Below are positions 14,851 to 20,878 of a stretch of DNA of 59,723 bases, piece after piece. Source of the stretch: Prosthecobacter sp. (GTDB lineage: Bacteria; Verrucomicrobiota; Verrucomicrobiia; Verrucomicrobiales; Verrucomicrobiaceae); contig NZ_JACSRD010000195.1 of the NCBI RefSeq assembly GCF_014879935.1, forward strand, positions 1 through 59,723. Reading direction: 5' to 3'. The notes under the pieces were generated by a model. That model did not search any database and had not been told where the DNA came from. It was given only the letters and a program-made list of their open reading frames with translations. A program made the translations under genes and the position numbers. Positions within the stretch are counted from its first letter, which is position 1. Each line of letters starts with the position of its first letter.

Positions 14851-15723
14851 TTACGCAGATAGTGCCGTGTGCCCTAGGTCCATCGGTTTCAACAAGAAGA
14901 AAACTTGGCGGGTCGAATCGAATCCCTCGACATAGAATCGCCTAAGTTCTCCAGTAGTTGTTGTCAGGTGAACCACGTCCATCAGGGAAAAGACGTTCTT
15001 GGGACGGTTTTCCACAAACCAAGAATCTGGGCTGAAAACCTGCGGCCACCTAATGGAGCCAATGGCGTTTTTGAATCCTGAAGAGCGAATGAATCGCCGT
15101 GGAGCCAGCCATGCTCGATCATCTTTCTTCAGATCACATACCAAAAGGGCCGCAGTGTGCCCACACTTTTCGGTATAGCGCCTCAACGTTGAGTAATTGC
15201 CAGCGCCGTATCGCTTCGTGAGTTGCCTCACTGGCTCGAAAATGCCGAACCGGATATCCCGCGCATCATTGGTGAATGAATCTGATTGGAAGTGAACTTC
15301 ACTGGCGAAGCAGTTGGCAGCCTTCTCGAACAAATCGTGCGTTTCGTGGTCGAGTTCGTGTTCAGAATCTTCCAGGATTTCGTATGTCATGCGTTGATCC
15401 GGAAGGTAGTCATGCGCGATCTCATGGAGAGCGAGGGACTTGCGGCGGCTGGAATGAAGTGAACGATCCAGATAGATGGTGCGATCTCGGCGGTCCAAGA
15501 ATCCTTGGAGTTTACTCATCGCTTTTTTGATCGCGGCGGGGTCAACACCGTCAGGGATCGGAAGCTCAGTCATGGGCTTCAACTTCAACTTTGCCGCAGA
15601 CACGATGTCCTTAACTGGCGTTGGAAAGGTGCCATATGCAGCCGCCTCTCTCAGCAGTTGATCTGCATGTTTTTGAATATGCGCGATGTCGGCATCAGGC
15701 AGGCTGTAGTCATCCGTTTTCAT
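14851..15723 (-). CDS. ImmA/IrrE family metallopeptidase
   Basis: The 290-residue protein carries the zinc protease signature HEIAH at residues 100-104 (LALHEIAHDYLP). A downstream Glu helix (LFEKAANCFASE, about 131-142) supplies the third ligand. The N-terminal part (DADIAHIQKHADQLL) is the usual helical start. ImmA/IrrE proteins cleave partner XRE repressors to trigger phage-like or stress responses. Its ATG lies inside the last codons of the XRE gene (14-base overlap), so the two are one operon. The 130-residue C-terminal extension (TRRYTEK-type and RRFYVEGFDSTRQVF regions) may be a sensor. The pair faces the ubiquitin-like cassette and is a candidate regulator of it. Confidence 0.85.
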   Translation of the reverse strand: MKTDDYSLPDADIAHIQKHADQLLREAAAYGTFPTPVKDIVSAAKLKLKPMTELPIPDGVDPAAIKKAMSKLQGFLDRRDRTIYLDRSLHSSRRKSLALHEIAHDYLPDQRMTYEILEDSEHELDHETHDLFEKAANCFASEVHFQSDSFTNDARDIRFGIFEPVRQLTKRYGAGNYSTLRRYTEKCGHTAALLVCDLKKDDRAWLAPRRFIRSSGFKNAIGSIRWPQVFSPDSWFVENRPKNVFSLMDVVHLTTTTGELRRFYVEGFDSTRQVFFLLKPMDLGHTALSA

Positions 15724-16108
15724 CGGTTCTGCGGTTTTTCATTTTCAAGAAGGCAATGTACTCGCGCACCTTCTCTTCCTCTTCTCTGGTCAACTCCACA
15801 TCCGCGAGAGTAGACGTGGGTAAAGCGCCTCGACGTTTGGTTTCATTTCCGGTCGTTGCCTTTAGGTGCCCGGCTAGCTCCATCAGGTGTTGATAAGGCG
15901 CCTTGTAGCCGGTGGCAATTTTTTGGAGGATAGCGGGCGATGGTGATTTTATTCGACCTGTCTCGATCTGATTGATGTAGGCATTTGAAACCCCAGAAGC
16001 GTCCTCGGCTTCACGGAGGCTCATGCCAAGTGCGTTTCTGGTGTCCCAAAGGTACGAGCCAAGGGCACCACGTTGGCTTGCAGTCGGTTGGATGGGCGGG
16101 GAAGGCAT
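15710..16108 (-). CDS. XRE family transcriptional regulator
   Basis: From ATG 16108 the protein is 132 residues. A helix-turn-helix domain at about 17-70 (GSYLWDTRNALGMSLREAED, SGVSNAYINQIETGR) is followed by a helical tail ending EEEKVREYIAFLKMKNR. A longer frame up to 16243 would run across the divergent promoter region and into the neighbouring start, so the short form is preferred. It is translationally coupled to the ImmA-type protease gene, the standard repressor/antirepressor arrangement. The divergent 118-base gap holds a palindrome and a direct repeat that could be its operators, suggesting control of both itself and the ubiquitin-like cassette. Confidence 0.82.
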   Translation of the reverse strand: MPSPPIQPTASQRGALGSYLWDTRNALGMSLREAEDASGVSNAYINQIETGRIKSPSPAILQKIATGYKAPYQHLMELAGHLKATTGNETKRRGALPTSTLADVELTREEEEKVREYIAFLKMKNRRTDENG

Positions 16109-16141
16109 CTGTCCGGAAACTAGCTGATCTGCTAAATCTAT

Positions 16142-16196
16142 CAAGCGTGTTAAATTTTCCTTGCACACTTCGACAAGCGCGCTTAAAACTTTAAGC
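16142..16196. promoter_or_regulatory. Divergent promoter/operator region between XRE and ubiquitin-like operon
   Basis: CAAGCGTGTTAAA (16142-16154) and CAAGCGCGCTTAAA (16174-16187) are imperfect direct repeats 32 bases apart, about three helical turns. GCTTAAA-AC-TTTAAGC (16181-16196) is a palindrome. A weak rightward promoter, TTGCAC (16161-16166), 17 bases, TAAAAC (16184-16189), would have its -10 covered by the palindrome. This suits repression by the adjacent XRE protein. Confidence 0.45.
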
Positions 16197-16226
16197 AGCA
16201 GAGGACAACCCCCTCTCATTCTCAAA

Positions 16227-16547
16227 ATGAAAGACCCAGACAAACATCATATCCCCGAAGACGAAATCGAAGACCTCGAAGTCTGCTGCCGTGAAGGCCG
16301 CGCACCCCGCTGCGACCGCCACTACCGCATCAAGGTCGACAAAGAACCCTACGTGAGCCCCGTCAGCTTCATGACCGGCCGCCAGATTCTGGAACTCGCT
16401 GGCAAATGCGAGCCCGATAAATGGAAGCTCCGCCAGAAGTTCGCTTCTGGTGAACTCAAGAAAATCGGACTGGACGACAAAGTCGATTTCACCACACCCG
16501 GCGTGGAGAAGTTCCTCACCCTCCCGTGTGACCAAACCGAAGGTTAA
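16227..16547 (+). CDS. Ubiquitin-like protein (multiubiquitin-domain family, single domain)
   Basis: The 106-residue protein starts at ATG 16227. A charged N-terminal tail (about residues 1-32, Cys-rich around 20-29) precedes one beta-grasp domain of the bacterial multiubiquitin type: HYRIKVDKEPY, FMTGRQILELAGKCEP, and KKIGLDDKVDFTTPGVEKF. It ends LPCDQTEG, so the last residue is Gly, as expected for a protein adenylated at its C-terminus, but there is no Gly-Gly. Most relatives carry several tandem domains; this one has a single copy. It is the first gene of a cassette with E2-like, JAB-E1, DUF6527 and YjzC-like genes, so it should be the modifier attached to targets. Confidence 0.82.
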   Translation: MKDPDKHHIPEDEIEDLEVCCREGRAPRCDRHYRIKVDKEPYVSPVSFMTGRQILELAGKCEPDKWKLRQKFASGELKKIGLDDKVDFTTPGVEKFLTLPCDQTEG

Positions 16548-16553
16548 GCCGCC

Positions 16554-16955
16554 ATGCGCCGAGAATTTCAACTTCCTGAGAGGGACGTGAAGTTCCTCGA
16601 TTCTACCGGCAGGCCTTGGGAAACCATAGGCCTGCCGGGCAAGCGGTATGTGTTGATCCACGGTTATCCGGTGCCCTCCGGCTACAACATCCCGGAGGTC
16701 ATCACGGCACTCAAGATCGACCCAGGCTATGACGACGCTCAAATCGACATGGCCTATTTTTTCCCGGCTCTCGTCCGGCAGGATGGCAAAACCATCAACA
16801 ACCTCACACACGAGACCATCGATGGCCAGATCTACCAGCGCTGGTCACGCCACCGGACTCCGGCCAATCCCTGGCGGCCAGGTGAAGACTACATCGGCAG
16901 CCATATGGCCCTCGTGGATGATTGGCTCGAACGTGAATTCCGACTCAAACCATGA
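16554..16955 (+). CDS. E2-like (prokaryotic E2 family E) protein lacking cysteine
   Basis: The 133-residue protein fits the prokaryotic E2/UBC family E associated with multiubiquitin genes. YVLIHGYPVPSGYNIPEVIT and IDPGYDDAQIDMAYFFPALV give the core strands, and YQRWSRHRTPANPWRPGEDY (about 94-113) holds the conserved Trp-Ser-Arg-His and Asp, followed by a C-terminal helix. There is no cysteine anywhere in the sequence, so it cannot form the thioester used by classical E2 enzymes. Ser98 and His100 of WSRH are candidates for a different role. The gene starts 6 bases after the modifier gene and overlaps the E1 gene by ATGA. Whether it transfers the modifier or only scaffolds is unknown. Confidence 0.8.
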   Translation: MRREFQLPERDVKFLDSTGRPWETIGLPGKRYVLIHGYPVPSGYNIPEVITALKIDPGYDDAQIDMAYFFPALVRQDGKTINNLTHETIDGQIYQRWSRHRTPANPWRPGEDYIGSHMALVDDWLEREFRLKP

Positions 16956-18319
16956 ACTACACTTTGAAACTCAGCGGCTACCAACATGCCGCGCTCCAGT
17001 CCCACCTGCTCCAAGATGCCAACGAAGCTGCGGCAATCGTTCTCTGCGGCCGGTGTGTCACTGACTCTCAAACCATTCTGATCGGCCAAAAAGTGGTCCC
17101 CATACCACTCGAAGCCTGTGTCGTTCGCCACCCCGACTTTCTCCACTGGCGCACCGATGCCGTCGAAGCTGCATTCGAAGAAGCTGCTTCAAAAGGCCTG
17201 TCGGTTCTCAAGATTCACAGTCATCCAGGAGGTTACGCGGACTTTTCGCGCACGGATGACGCATCAGACAAGGAACTGTTTCCCTCGCTGTATGGCTGGA
17301 CGGATGGCCCGCACGCCAGCGCTGTCATGCTGCCGGACGGGAGCATCTTTGGACGCCATGTGAGTGACAAAGGACGCTTTACACCGATTCGCCGGGTCGC
17401 GGTGGCTGGTGATGATGTTCGCATCTGGGACCACGAGACCCACATTGGCGAAGTGCCGACGACTGCGAACCGTCACGCCCGAGCATTCGGCGCTGCAACG
17501 ACCTTGCTGCTGAAACGACTCAAGATTGCCGTGGTCGGGTGCTCCGGCACGGGATCAGTCGTGATCGAACAACTCGGACGTCTCCAGGTAGGTGAACTCA
17601 TTCTAATCGACCCTGATTGCGCTGAGGACGTGAACTCGAATCGCATCATCGGGCTCACAGCAGAAGATGTGGAGTGCCGTCGCCCTAAGGTCGAAGTGCT
17701 CAAGCGCTCCGTCGAAGCGATGGGACTGGGCACTCGTGTGACGGCCTTGCCACGCGATGTGATGAATCCAGATGCCATCAAGGCTGTGGCAGAATGTGAT
17801 CTGGTTTTCGGGTGCATGGACAGCGCTTCCGGCCGTCACGTCTTAAACAAACTCGCGGCGACTTATTGCCTGCCCTACATCGACGTTGGAGTGCGTCTCG
17901 TCGCAGATGGTTCTGGGAGCATTTCGCATGTTTGTGGCTCGGTGAACTACCTTCAGCCAGGTGGTTCAAGCCTTCTCAGCCGTGGGCTTTACACCCTTCA
18001 AGACTTTGAAGCCGAAATGCTCAAAAAGGGCGATCCCGAAGCCTACAAAGCCCGTCTCGCGGAGAAGTACATCAAAGGTGTTCAGGAAAGTCGTCCTGCT
18101 GTCATTAGTGTGAACACAGTTTACGCAGGGTTAGCCGTCACGGAGATGCTCGCACGCCTGCATCCATTCCGAGATGACCCGAATGGCCGCTACGCCTCAA
18201 CCTGTCTGAGTCTGAACGGAACGTTCGTCGAATGCTCTTCGGACGGTCAGCCCTGCCCAGTAATCAACCGCCATGCCGGCAAAGGAGACATGGAACCTCT
18301 ACTCGGACTGCAAAGCTAA
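16952..18319 (+). CDS. JAB deubiquitinase-like / E1-like ThiF fusion protein
   Basis: The 455-residue protein joins two domains. The N-terminal JAB/MPN domain (about 1-145) has Glu25 and an intact JAMM signature, H89-S-H91-P with Ser99 and Asp102, so it should be a zinc peptidase that processes or removes the modifier. The C-terminal E1-like domain (about 175-455) has the nucleotide loop GCSGTG (196-201), Asp220, NSNR (228-231), Lys246 and Asp290, all expected for C-terminal adenylation. The zinc motifs of MoeB/ThiF are eroded: S-S-L-L-S at 339-343 replaces CxxC, and CPVI at 435-438 keeps one Cys. No cysteine lies between 329 and 417; Ser380 sits where ThiF has its reactive Cys. Confidence 0.88.
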   Translation: MNYTLKLSGYQHAALQSHLLQDANEAAAIVLCGRCVTDSQTILIGQKVVPIPLEACVVRHPDFLHWRTDAVEAAFEEAASKGLSVLKIHSHPGGYADFSRTDDASDKELFPSLYGWTDGPHASAVMLPDGSIFGRHVSDKGRFTPIRRVAVAGDDVRIWDHETHIGEVPTTANRHARAFGAATTLLLKRLKIAVVGCSGTGSVVIEQLGRLQVGELILIDPDCAEDVNSNRIIGLTAEDVECRRPKVEVLKRSVEAMGLGTRVTALPRDVMNPDAIKAVAECDLVFGCMDSASGRHVLNKLAATYCLPYIDVGVRLVADGSGSISHVCGSVNYLQPGGSSLLSRGLYTLQDFEAEMLKKGDPEAYKARLAEKYIKGVQESRPAVISVNTVYAGLAVTEMLARLHPFRDDPNGRYASTCLSLNGTFVECSSDGQPCPVINRHAGKGDMEPLLGLQS

Positions 18320-18321
18320 GG

Positions 18322-18672
18322 ATGAAAACGATTCGCCGACTTCTGAAACGCTTTTGGCGCTGGGTCATCCCAATGCCGAAGATGGCTTTGGTTTCGGTAG
18401 AGGAGGTTCCCGACCGTCTCAAGAAGCGAGTCGGATATGTGATCGGTGAAAACGGCCACGAATGGCATGTCGTCATGAGCTGCCCCTGTGGATGTTGCGA
18501 ACCGATCTATCTCAATTTGCTTCCTGATGACTTTCCTCGCTGGGAACTGACGCGTCACCGCGATCAGACCTTTTCTCTTTTTCCCTCCGTGTGGCGCACC
18601 ACCGGATGCCGAAGCCATTTCTTTGTCCGTCGTAGCCGCATCGAGTGGTGTGGACCCACGATCCGACACTGA
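18322..18672 (+). CDS. DUF6527 family protein of ubiquitin-like cassette
   Basis: The 116-residue protein starts at ATG 18322, two bases after the E1 stop. A basic N-terminal helix leads to VGYVIGENGHEWHVVMSCPC, then the Cys cluster 54-59 (C-x-C-x-C-C). LFPSVWRTTGCRSHFFVR and IEWC follow, so Cys96, His99 and Cys110 complete a probable zinc site. This pattern is typical of DUF6527 proteins, which travel with bacterial E2/E1/ubiquitin-like genes. A role in maturing or removing the modifier is plausible because other components lack extra activities, but it is not shown by the sequence. Confidence 0.78.
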   Translation: MKTIRRLLKRFWRWVIPMPKMALVSVEEVPDRLKKRVGYVIGENGHEWHVVMSCPCGCCEPIYLNLLPDDFPRWELTRHRDQTFSLFPSVWRTTGCRSHFFVRRSRIEWCGPTIRH

Positions 18673-18695: not shown

Positions 18696-18869
18696 ATGTC
18701 TAAACCTCATCTGAAACCTGGTCAGTCCGTTCCCACTTCCGGTCAATACGGCGTCTTCGGCCCTCGCGGTGGATACCTTCACCAAGAAGTCACCGGCGTT
18801 CGCGGCAAAACACTCCCGCCGACGCCCAAACCGGGCCAGACCTACAAGCTGGTGGACCGCACGAAGTAG
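18696..18869 (+). CDS. Small YjzC-like protein at end of ubiquitin-like cassette
   Basis: The 57-residue protein starts at ATG 18696 (an ATG at 18687 adds three residues). It reads as one compact module: HLKPGQSVPTSGQYGVFGPR, then TLPPTPKPGQTYKLVDRTK. The pattern KPG-x-VP-x-SG-x-Y, with a later PPTPKPGQ-x-Y-x-LVD, resembles the small YjzC family of unknown function. It follows DUF6527 by 23 bases in the same direction, so it is probably cotranscribed with the conjugation genes. It could be a target, an effector or an adaptor; no catalytic residues are evident. Confidence 0.65.
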   Translation: MSKPHLKPGQSVPTSGQYGVFGPRGGYLHQEVTGVRGKTLPPTPKPGQTYKLVDRTK

Positions 18870-18968: not shown

Positions 18969-19262
18969 ATGCCTGCCGTCGCCACTGCCCGCCGCTCGAA
19001 TCGCCTCGTCGCCCGAGTTACATCGGATGACAAGGCTTTGCTGGAGCGTGCGGCTGGATTGGAAGGCTGTTCCGTCGCTGTGTTCGTGATTTCTCATGTG
19101 CGTGCTGCGGCGGAAGAAATCGTCCGCCGCCATGATACGGTGAAATTGAGTCAAACCGAGTCGCGTCGCTTTGTGGAAGCCCTCCTCGCACCCGTCAAAG
19201 CCCCCACCAAGCGCATGCGCACGGCTTTGGACCTGCATCGCAAGACGGTCATCGAGCGCTGA
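18969..19262 (+). CDS. DUF1778 (TacA-like) antitoxin
   Basis: The 97-residue protein has a ribbon-helix-helix DNA-binding start (RLVARVTSDDKALLERAAGL, SVAVFVISHVRAAAEEIV) and a C-terminal tail that in this family wraps the GNAT toxin (KLSQTESRRFVEALLAP). DUF1778 antitoxins repress their operon and block TacT-type acetyltransferases that acetylate aminoacyl-tRNA. The toxin gene would normally follow on the same strand. Here the only GNAT toxin gene is on the opposite strand, converging with a 14-base overlap of the 3' ends. Either this antitoxin has been separated from its own toxin, or the pair is unusually arranged. Confidence 0.8.
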   Translation: MPAVATARRSNRLVARVTSDDKALLERAAGLEGCSVAVFVISHVRAAAEEIVRRHDTVKLSQTESRRFVEALLAPVKAPTKRMRTALDLHRKTVIER

Positions 19263-19764
19263 TCCATTGCGCCGCCGACTTCATCGTGATGAATTGGCGG
19301 TACTCCGTCAGGGGTTGAAAGCCAAAGCTCGCATAAAACGCCCGTGCCTTTTCATCCTTGGGATCGGTCACAATCGCCCACGAGGCGACTTCTTCGGAAG
19401 CTCTCACTGACCGATGTAGCATGCTTGCCATGAGCCTTTCGCCGATCTGCTGTTCTTTGAACCTCAAATCGCGCGCCAAACGGCCCAGCAAGGTCGCTGG
19501 CAGTTCATTGTATCGCGGAAGCTTTTTGGTCACCGATTCTGGCAAGGCCGTTCTCAGCACCGTGGCTGCTGAAAGCGTGTAGTAGCCAGCAATGACATTA
19601 GGCTCGTCCTCCGGCACCATCACGAAGCAGGCGGAAGTCCCGGCCTCCATTTCCTTGCGGGCGCGAAGCCGGAGGAAGTCATTCAATGCCTCAACTCCAC
19701 AATCAAACTCCTCCCGGCAGTGTTTGGCCGGATTGAGAGGTTCGACGATGAAGGTTTGACTCAT
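19249..19764 (-). CDS. GNAT family toxin-like acetyltransferase (TacT-like)
   Basis: From ATG 19764 the protein is 171 residues, the usual length for GNAT toxins. It shows EEFDCGVEALNDFLRLRARK, the GYYTLS strand, LPRYNELPATLLGRLARD, and the acetyl-CoA loop region RFKEQQIGERLM, then ARAFYASFGFQPL with the conserved Tyr. Such toxins acetylate the amino group of charged tRNA and stop translation. The gene lies 25 bases after the Fic gene on the same strand, so those two may share a transcript. Its end overlaps the end of the DUF1778 antitoxin gene running the other way. The fold call is strong; pairing with the DUF1778 protein is an inference. Confidence 0.85.
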   Translation of the reverse strand: MSQTFIVEPLNPAKHCREEFDCGVEALNDFLRLRARKEMEAGTSACFVMVPEDEPNVIAGYYTLSAATVLRTALPESVTKKLPRYNELPATLLGRLARDLRFKEQQIGERLMASMLHRSVRASEEVASWAIVTDPKDEKARAFYASFGFQPLTEYRQFITMKSAAQWISAR

Positions 19765-19789
19765 GTGGCTGTTTAGCCTTTCGGCTGGA

Positions 19790-20878
19790 TTACTCAACAA
19801 TCGCTCCCTCAAACCTCTCCGCCAGCCGGTAGCTTCGTCCCTTCTTTGAAGCATTGGCGACGGCTAGAAAGCCCTCAGCCGCCCATTTGGCGCACTGCTC
19901 TCGCCCCTGACGGGGCGAGAGGCCGAGGTAAGCGGCAAGTTCGTTCGAGGTGACGATGCGATGCTTCGCGAAGAGGCCGAGCGCCTGGCGTTGCAGCGGA
20001 CGCAGTTCGCGCAGTAGCGCAGCTTTGTCCTGCGGCGCGGACAGGCTGGAGGCCTCGGCGCGGGCGGCCACTTTGGCGAAAGCATCGGACATGCCTTCAC
20101 AGAAGTATTGCACGAAGCCGCTCACGTCCGCTTCGGCACGACCGAGGTGGTAGTTATGGCTCGGACCTACCGAAAGCGCGTCGTAGTAGCCGCGCAGATG
20201 CCGGGCATAGTATTCCTCCAGCGAGTAGATGCCCTTCAGCCCATAGCCGCAGCGATGCAGGATCAGCGTCGTCAGCAGCCGCGCGGTGCGCCCATTCCCA
20301 TCGTAGTAAGGGTGAATCGTGGCGAACTGGTAGTGCGCCAGCGCGGCGATGACCGGCACGGGCAGGTCGCGAGACTCGATCTCGTCATTGATCCATGCCA
20401 CCAACTCACCCATCAGCCCCGCAACTTCCTTCGCCTCTGGCGGCAGGTAGGTGATGGCACCGTTGGAGCTGTTGCGGATCACGTTTTGGCCGTCGCGATA
20501 AGGCGTGGGTCGCTTTTTACCCTCGAAGGCCAGTCCGTGAATCGTTTGGATGTCCTTCTCGGTGAGCTTCCGCTTCAAAGCAGCGAGCGACTCGACCTCA
20601 TCTGCTGCCTTGTAGTAGTTCTGCACCTCCCGCTCGTCCCTCTCGCGACCCGGAAAGCCGCCGCCGCCCGCGATCACCTCCTCCACCTGTGGCAGCGTGA
20701 GGCGATTCCCCTCGATCTGCGTCGAGTAATGCGTCGTCAGCAGCCGCGCCGACTCCCGCAGCGAAGCGATCATCTGCGGCGTCACCGGCAGCCGATCCAC
20801 CGCCACCCGCGAAGCCTCGATGGCCATCAGCGCCTTCGCCGAAGCGGGCGTGATGCGGTAAACGGGTTGAAAGGGCAT
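19790..20878 (-). CDS. Fic family protein with C-terminal winged helix
   Basis: The 362-residue protein carries the complete Fic motif HPYYDGNGRTAR at 189-200, so it should transfer AMP (or a related group) from a nucleotide to a target protein. The class II inhibitory motif S52-T-Q-I-E56-G57-N is present before the core, so the protein is probably autoinhibited. The C-terminal 75 residues (QRQALGLFAKHRIVTSNELA, LGLSPRQGREQCAKW) form a winged helix. The gene starts 20 bases from a set of 11-bp repeats that are likely operators, and it precedes the GNAT toxin-like gene. Confidence 0.92.
   Translation of the reverse strand: MPFQPVYRITPASAKALMAIEASRVAVDRLPVTPQMIASLRESARLLTTHYSTQIEGNRLTLPQVEEVIAGGGGFPGRERDEREVQNYYKAADEVESLAALKRKLTEKDIQTIHGLAFEGKKRPTPYRDGQNVIRNSSNGAITYLPPEAKEVAGLMGELVAWINDEIESRDLPVPVIAALAHYQFATIHPYYDGNGRTARLLTTLILHRCGYGLKGIYSLEEYYARHLRGYYDALSVGPSHNYHLGRAEADVSGFVQYFCEGMSDAFAKVAARAEASSLSAPQDKAALLRELRPLQRQALGLFAKHRIVTSNELAAYLGLSPRQGREQCAKWAAEGFLAVANASKKGRSYRLAERFEGAIVE

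Follow-up and report, generated by a model that had tools for sequence, protein, structure and literature searches.

In the usual teaching, ubiquitin is passed along a series of thioesters. Among bacteria, the Bil (bacterial ISG15-like) systems have cysteine-bearing E1 and E2 proteins encoded by separate genes, and enzymes of the MoeB/ThiF type carry cysteine pairs. Ye et al. reportedly described in 2026 the Bub (bacterial ubiquitination-like) operon of Citrobacter, with the PDB entries 9ea4, 9ea5, 9ea8, 9eae, and 9eav. The available text of PMC13373217 treats Bub as putative immune pathways, counts 544 operons, 219 of which lie beside CapW or CapH+CapP, and presents phage protection as not demonstrated. 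In 2006, Iyer et al. had listed a gene set of this kind as operon class 6e; as set out in the accessible part of their paper (PMC1779556), it comprises a polyUbl or a solo ubiquitin-like protein (Ubl), an E2/RWD-like domain, a JAB-E1 fusion, and a metal-binding companion with the signature C-x(3)-C-x(35-38)-H-x(2)-C. That the E2-like domain has no cysteine was noted there too, and for this reason it was judged likely inactive (RWD-like). The original prediction for the locus described here, which pointed to recent work on diverged bacterial pathways, was correct in that the kind is already in print, as far as these two partly accessible sources go.

Gene content of the locus

The window, i.e. 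the whole stretch of 59,723 nucleotides of Prosthecobacter sp. DNA that was analysed, contains four plus-strand genes that overlap or are tightly spaced. The first (16227..16547) encodes a Ubl of 106 residues (Pfam Multi_ubiq, 8.3e-12), the C-terminus of which reads exactly ...DQTEG. It is followed by the genes for a BubB-like E2 of 133 residues (16554..16955; Pfam Prok-E2_E, 1.5e-33), a BubCD-like JAB-E1 fusion of 455 residues (16952..18319; Pfam ThiF, 1.1e-25, and Prok-JAB, 6.5e-9), and a DUF6527 protein, a probable metal-binding part of the operon (18322..18672; Pfam PF20137, 3.8e-20). The interval put forward earlier as the conjugation cassette (16554-18319) does hold the E2 and the JAB-E1 genes, but it cuts off the Ubl gene just upstream and the cysteine-rich DUF6527 just downstream. 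Calling the cassette one without the cysteines of a thioester pathway was right for the E2, which has no cysteine at all, but overlooked the conserved cysteines of DUF6527.

When PDB chains were searched with phmmer, the closest solved proteins were Citrobacter BubB for the E2 (9eae, 1e-22) and Citrobacter BubCD for the JAB-E1 protein (9ea4, 4.1e-79, residues 7-453). The best matches of the Ubl were other multi-ubiquitin proteins (9d59, 1.2e-5); those with 8u38 Ubl-BilA (4.8e-4) and, directly, with Citrobacter BubA (0.071) were weak. The AlphaFold2 model of the E2 (mean pLDDT 91) superimposed on 9eae_C ('Structure of Citrobacter BubCD(D104A)-BubB') with a Z of 20.1 and an rmsd of 1.4 over 125 aligned residues (42% identity), ahead of eukaryotic E2s (Z 8.4 and below). 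The window therefore has an E2 homologous to BubB and a JAB-E1 fusion homologous to BubCD; it also has an adjacent Ubl with a C-terminal glycine (ending TEG) that matches Multi_ubiq well and BubA weakly, and a DUF6527 gene after E1. We took this last feature from the present loci and from the C-x3-C gene in the accessible part of PMC1779556, rather than from the Bub paper. Judged by sequence, the Ubl-E2-JAB-E1-DUF6527 set makes up a complete Bub operon, with a CapH+CapP-like switch next to it.

The putative switch lies on the opposite strand, divergent from these genes. It consists of an ImmA/IrrE (M78) metallopeptidase (14851..15723, minus strand; Pfam PF06114, 1.7e-7; HEIAH motif) and an XRE-type repressor (15710..16243, minus strand; Pfam HTH_3, 2.1e-11), the real start of which is probably inside this ORF. 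The two proteins match the PADLOC models capP (2.4e-11) and capH (1.1e-6), the latter coming second to HTH_VI (4.6e-9). Of the 35 loci for which 2 kb or more of upstream sequence was available, 24 had XRE and/or M78 genes no further than about 3.5 kb upstream (XRE in 17, M78 in 21, both in 14). Between the regulator and the Ubl gene lies a candidate operator, the inverted repeat GCTTAAAACTTTAAGC (16181..16196, unstranded). With up to 2 mismatches allowed, the window contains a single copy of the full palindrome (0.02 expected) and 3 copies of the looser GCTT-N8-AAGC (operon start, 20566, and 44114). Near the operon start the looser motif occurred in 4 of 64 loci (the window, L058, L063, and L065; 0.012 expected per locus), of which only L058 is independent, since the motif had been read off the window, L063, and L065 before the count. 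Eight distinct loci have an XRE protein of at least 130 bits, and the four with the motif all belong to them. No operator common to all relatives was found: the motif is absent at the operon start in the other four of these eight (L010, L019, L025, and L060).

Beyond the DUF6527 gene there is a 57-residue ORF (18696-18869) that weakly resembles YjzC, with a score under Pfam's cut-off, and then a TacA1-type antitoxin gene (18969-19262, plus strand; PF08681, 9.9e-19) that is convergent with, and overlaps by 14 bases, a gene whose matches to GNAT acetyltransferases are weak and fall short of Pfam's cut-offs (19249-19854, minus strand). TacA1-type antitoxin/GNAT pairs are usually co-directional, unlike this convergent pair (18969-19854). 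The next gene after the GNAT-like one encodes a Fic/DOC family protein (19790-20878, minus strand; PF02661, 6e-20). To the left of the operon lies icd, which is conserved in three genomes of the same genus and one of the same family. A search of the 12 to 13 kb after icd in these genomes revealed no gene of the operon, and the same-family genome has an E2 at another place. In the same-genus locus L094, a Fic-like match (33% identity) also directly follows icd, so that this position may be a hotspot.

Relatives and their distribution

E1 and E2 were sought in 77 loci and the window, drawn from genomes, genome contigs, and plasmids. Neither protein was found in L006, L007, L042, and L043, and only the E2 in L041 and L059; removal of 10 duplicates left 62 E1 rows and 64 E2 rows. 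Rows with an E1 profile score of at most 407 bits, or with no E1, were termed far and those with at least 434 bits near, a line that was drawn after the scores had been seen. One broken copy (L069) is a near row in the first E2/E1 column counts and was left out of the later residue counts, the tree, and the final counts. It comes from an Enterobacter hormaechei plasmid and has broken Ubl and E1 frames, while the related plasmid copies of Citrobacter freundii (L029) and Salmonella (L075) are intact.

The distribution of the E2 family is patchy. At E 0.001, it was found in 7 of 387 genomes of the window's phylum, its own included (5 over the family cut-off), in 9 of 398 (6 over the cut-off), 8 of 296 (8), and 12 of 294 (10) genomes of the phyla of three other loci, and in 0 of 14 control genomes. 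Among 72,556 plasmid records, 83 contained the E2 and 121 the E1. Carriage by phages or viruses was rejected: there was no match to E1 in 50,697 phage records at 1e-10, and of 67 viral stretches that matched a pattern none was confirmed.

Cysteines and serines of E1

E1 residues 339-343 read S-S-L-L-S and residues 435-438 CPVI, as predicted. The cysteines are at positions 32, 35, 56, 197, 223, 242, 282, 288, 306, 328, 418, 428, and 435, so that the claimed absence of cysteine from 329 to 417 also holds. The adenylation residues N228, R231, K246, D290, and R295 are invariant (49/49 near and 12/12 far rows), as are E25, H89, H91, S99, and D102 of the JAMM motif. Loss of ATP binding by this E1, which had been named as a possible objection to the prediction, finds no support in the ATP-site residues, which are intact.

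Ser380 had been proposed as a nucleophile in place of the catalytic cysteine of ThiF. It does head the SRPAV motif in the window, but serine occupies this column in only 2 of the 49 near rows, one of them the window (Asp in 15, Glu in 12, Pro in 8). The idea that Ser339 to Ser343 form a nucleophile motif fared no better: serine is found at 339 in 31, at 340 in 31, and at 343 in 24 of the 49 near rows, and positions 340 and 343 correspond to two members of a four-cysteine site. Although serines are present at the 380 and 339-343 positions in the window, we rejected them as nucleophiles on account of this poor conservation and of the four-cysteine site, and we give almost no credence to a Ubl carried by them.

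All four cysteines (columns 340, 343, 435, and 438) are present in 8 of the 49 near rows, and at most one in the other 41; the window E1 lacks three of the four cysteines of the MoeB/ThiF CxxC pairs. The first CxxC, which in relatives outside the window's branch takes the place of Ser340 to Ser343 (17969..17980, plus strand), is present in all 12 far E1 rows. When 61 E1s were placed in a maximum-likelihood tree, the 41 that lack it, including the window and the Citrobacter plasmid copy L029, formed one side of a branch with a support of 100/100, and the trait required one change, as compared with a mean of 16.9 in 500 shuffles. Midpoint rooting served solely to draw this tree, in which several far rows have long branches. 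We took the change to be a loss rather than a gain because MoeB/ThiF-type enzymes have cysteine pairs. Read from the alignment, the pattern is that of a structural metal site, probably a zinc site, that was lost once, and not that of a catalytic cysteine replaced by serine.

A candidate active site in the E2

The E2 contains, as claimed, no cysteine among its 133 residues. The chance of this is 0.03 at the cysteine rate of five neighbouring proteins and 0.26 at 1% cysteine; because it depends on the background to this extent, the lack of cysteine counts only as a property of the family. In the family, 15 of 49 near E2 domains are entirely without cysteine, and no cysteine column exceeds 6 of 49 near rows. 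For the latter reason we also rejected, as a hidden catalytic residue, the cysteine that precedes IDG in E2s such as L002, L003, L008, and L020. Residue 60 (codon 16731-16733) is Asp in the window and Pro in 47 of 50 near rows.

The original prediction had suggested checking the conservation of Ser98 and His100, which with Arg99 are encoded at 16845..16853 (plus strand). Each proved to be present in 41/41 rows of the window's E1 branch and in 19/20 outside it, i.e. in 60 of the 61 E2s with an E1 row. Few residues of the E2 are as well conserved as these two, Trp107, and Tyr59, and in the AlphaFold2 model Ser98 is located at the end of a strand, before the loop to the last helix. The sole exception, L057, has Cys in the Ser98 column and Glu in the His100 column. 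In the two E2s that lack an accompanying E1 row, the Ser98 column holds Cys (L059) and Asn (L041). Relatives keeping a cysteine aligned with a non-nucleophilic residue of the window had been named as evidence against the prediction. None was found, the cysteine seen at the candidate position being in the Ser98 column itself, in 2 of 14 far E2s (L057 and L059). These two cysteines would fit a Ser/Cys swap; the L059 locus lacks an E1, and L057 is without His100 and sits on a long branch. A branch of cysteine-type E2s was rejected: when plasmids were searched with the E2 of L057, a single weak record was returned, and a search for Multi_ubiq in the genomes of L057 and L059 gave no match, though this search gave no control hits either.

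Further information on the position of the active site was sought in cysteine-bearing E2s. When 13 far E2s were aligned globally, as profiles, with eight cysteine-bearing Prok-E2_B proteins (L079 being left out, as its domain was missed by the cut), the serine of the S-x-H motif fell on the cysteine with an E of 8e-5 and a probability of only 33%. Local profile alignments ended before the active site for both near and far E2s. The near E2 profile did not align confidently with the cysteine-bearing E2s (2.6% in the global alignment), so that this way of locating the site failed.

One alternative is that the E2 is an inert, RWD-like holder or scaffold and that the Ubl passes directly from the E1 adenylate to an amine of the target. 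The lack of a conserved cysteine column would agree with this, and so would the accessible text of PMC1779556, in which the class 6e domain is called likely inactive for want of cysteine. Yet the conservation of Ser98 and His100, with Trp107 and Tyr59, is more in keeping with an active site than with a surface that only binds, which makes an inert E2 unlikely in our view. Against transfer by an oxyester, it can be said that the conserved Ser-His pair could serve binding or structure. We regard Ser98 of the E2 as the best candidate for the nucleophile.

Tyr373 of E1

Another residue that may take part in transfer is Tyr373 of E1 (18068..18070, plus strand), which is present in 49/49 near rows (41/41 in the window's branch) and 7/12 far rows. 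PDB 9eav contains BubA and BubB in addition to BubCD; its chain A (BubCD) has Phe at the equivalent place, while 9ea4 and 9ea5 have Tyr. Both observations would suit a two-step oxyester relay, in which the Ubl is first attached to Tyr373 and then to Ser98 of the E2. However, Tyr373 is missing in 5 of the 12 far E1s (L005, L050, L058, L060, and L061), all of whose E2s keep Ser98 and His100, and the tyrosine may be structural or act as a general base. The relay through Tyr373 appears quite improbable for these reasons.

The Ubl and DUF6527

Glycine terminates the last Ubl domain in 48/48 near rows (24 separate genes and 24 fused to the E2) and in 6/9 far rows. In the fused forms the E2 directly follows this glycine. 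It is the very last residue encoded by 16 of the 24 separate near genes, among them that of the window; the others have a short tail. Since the Ubl gene of the window ends at the glycine, the JAB domain would not be needed there for maturation, only for deconjugation; it may be needed for Ubl processing in the fused and tailed forms.

Wherever E1 is followed by 600 bases or more, DUF6527 was found (34/34 loci, all of them near and including the window and the broken L069). Its residues C54, C58, C96, and H99 are conserved in 33 to 35 of 35 rows. A single-sequence search gave no PDB match up to E 1, and neither profile comparison (chance-level) nor Foldseek gave a significant match to the PDB, the best VIA-align Z being 3.1. 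Its residues suggest that DUF6527 is a conserved partner that probably binds a metal; it is possibly E3-like.

Of the 26 loci that lack the E1 CxxC, 24 have Cys56 of DUF6527 (in CPCGC, codon 18487-18489), as against 0 of the 8 with the CxxC. This distribution, together with the presence of the gene in every locus with room for it, would agree with Cys56 providing the thiol of the pathway, DUF6527 being a cysteine-bearing E3. But the E1 trait corresponds to one branch of the tree, so that one or a few events could be enough, and the pattern may be due to shared descent; moreover, Gly occupies position 56 in two CxxC-less loci (L012 and L063), and Cys56 is inside the metal-like C-x3-C motif. We consider a thiol in DUF6527 very improbable.

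Discussion

The preferred reading, to which we assign a probability of about 60%, is that the Ubl would pass from the adenylate on E1 to Ser98 of the E2 as an oxyester and from there to a target, with the JAB domain reversing the reaction and the Bub operon being under the control of the CapH+CapP-like switch. DNA damage or infection would activate the ImmA/IrrE peptidase, which would cut the XRE repressor and turn the operon on. E1 would then adenylate the C-terminal glycine of the Ubl, and the Ubl would be transferred to Ser98, with His100 as the base and Tyr373 of E1 assisting. The E2 would finally pass it to the target, from which the JAB domain could remove it.

The gene set probably attaches the Ubl to other proteins without the usual reactive cysteines. 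Transfer through an oxyester or directly from the adenylate, as originally proposed, is still the best reading because Ser98 and His100 are near-invariant, no E2 cysteine is conserved, and the ATP-site residues of E1 are intact; the oxyester idea is reasonable, and it points to the Ser98/His100 pair of the E2 and not to Ser380 or Ser339-343 of E1. A wider scheme combines a thiol-free relay from Tyr373 to Ser98 with the loss of the four-cysteine site of E1 in step with the gain of a cysteine by DUF6527, which would have taken over a structural or catalytic role. It strikes us as a long shot.

The family is scattered and often plasmid-borne, and a near-invariant Ser-His pair replaces the catalytic cysteine in it, which makes the question of an oxyester relay directly testable. 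The family-wide counts favour Ser98/His100 of the E2, Tyr373 of E1, and Cys56 of DUF6527 as residues of interest, and lead away from Ser380 and Ser339-343 of E1.

Citrobacter Bub likewise has an E2 with WSRH and no cysteine in the aligned active-site stretch, and likewise a JAB-E1 fusion, in which PGGSTL replaces CxxC. The Citrobacter freundii plasmid copy L029, which shares the window's E1 branch, has three Ubl domains fused to the E2, whereas the window has a single stand-alone Ubl already ending at glycine; the XRE+M78 pair found upstream in the window is absent upstream of L029. The Synechocystis pSYSX copy (L072) keeps the four-cysteine E1 site that is missing in the window. Class 6e, to the extent that it is described in the accessible part of PMC1779556, has in common with the window a Ubl, a cysteine-less E2-like domain, a JAB-E1 fusion, and a metal-binding companion, with the signature C-x(3)-C-x(35-38)-H-x(2)-C where DUF6527 of the window has C-x3-C-x37-C-x2-H.

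More distant systems share only parts of this set. CBASS Cap2 has a similar E1 core (PADLOC E1-E2, 3.5e-10) and a similar E2 fold (7tqd, Z 7.5), but it is an E1-E2 fusion beside a CD-NTase, whereas the window has separate E1 and E2 genes and no CD-NTase among the 14 proteins scanned. The E1 scored far below the cut-offs of the MoeB/ThiF-type models (67.4 bits against 275.25 for TIGR02356, 33.7 against 376.55 for TIGR02355). Bil shares Ubl, E1, E2, and JAB parts with the window operon; in the window, however, JAB is fused to E1, and the E2 lacks the catalytic cysteine of a Bil E2. The gene set thus belongs to a family that has already been described, and is a new example of Bub rather than a new kind of system.
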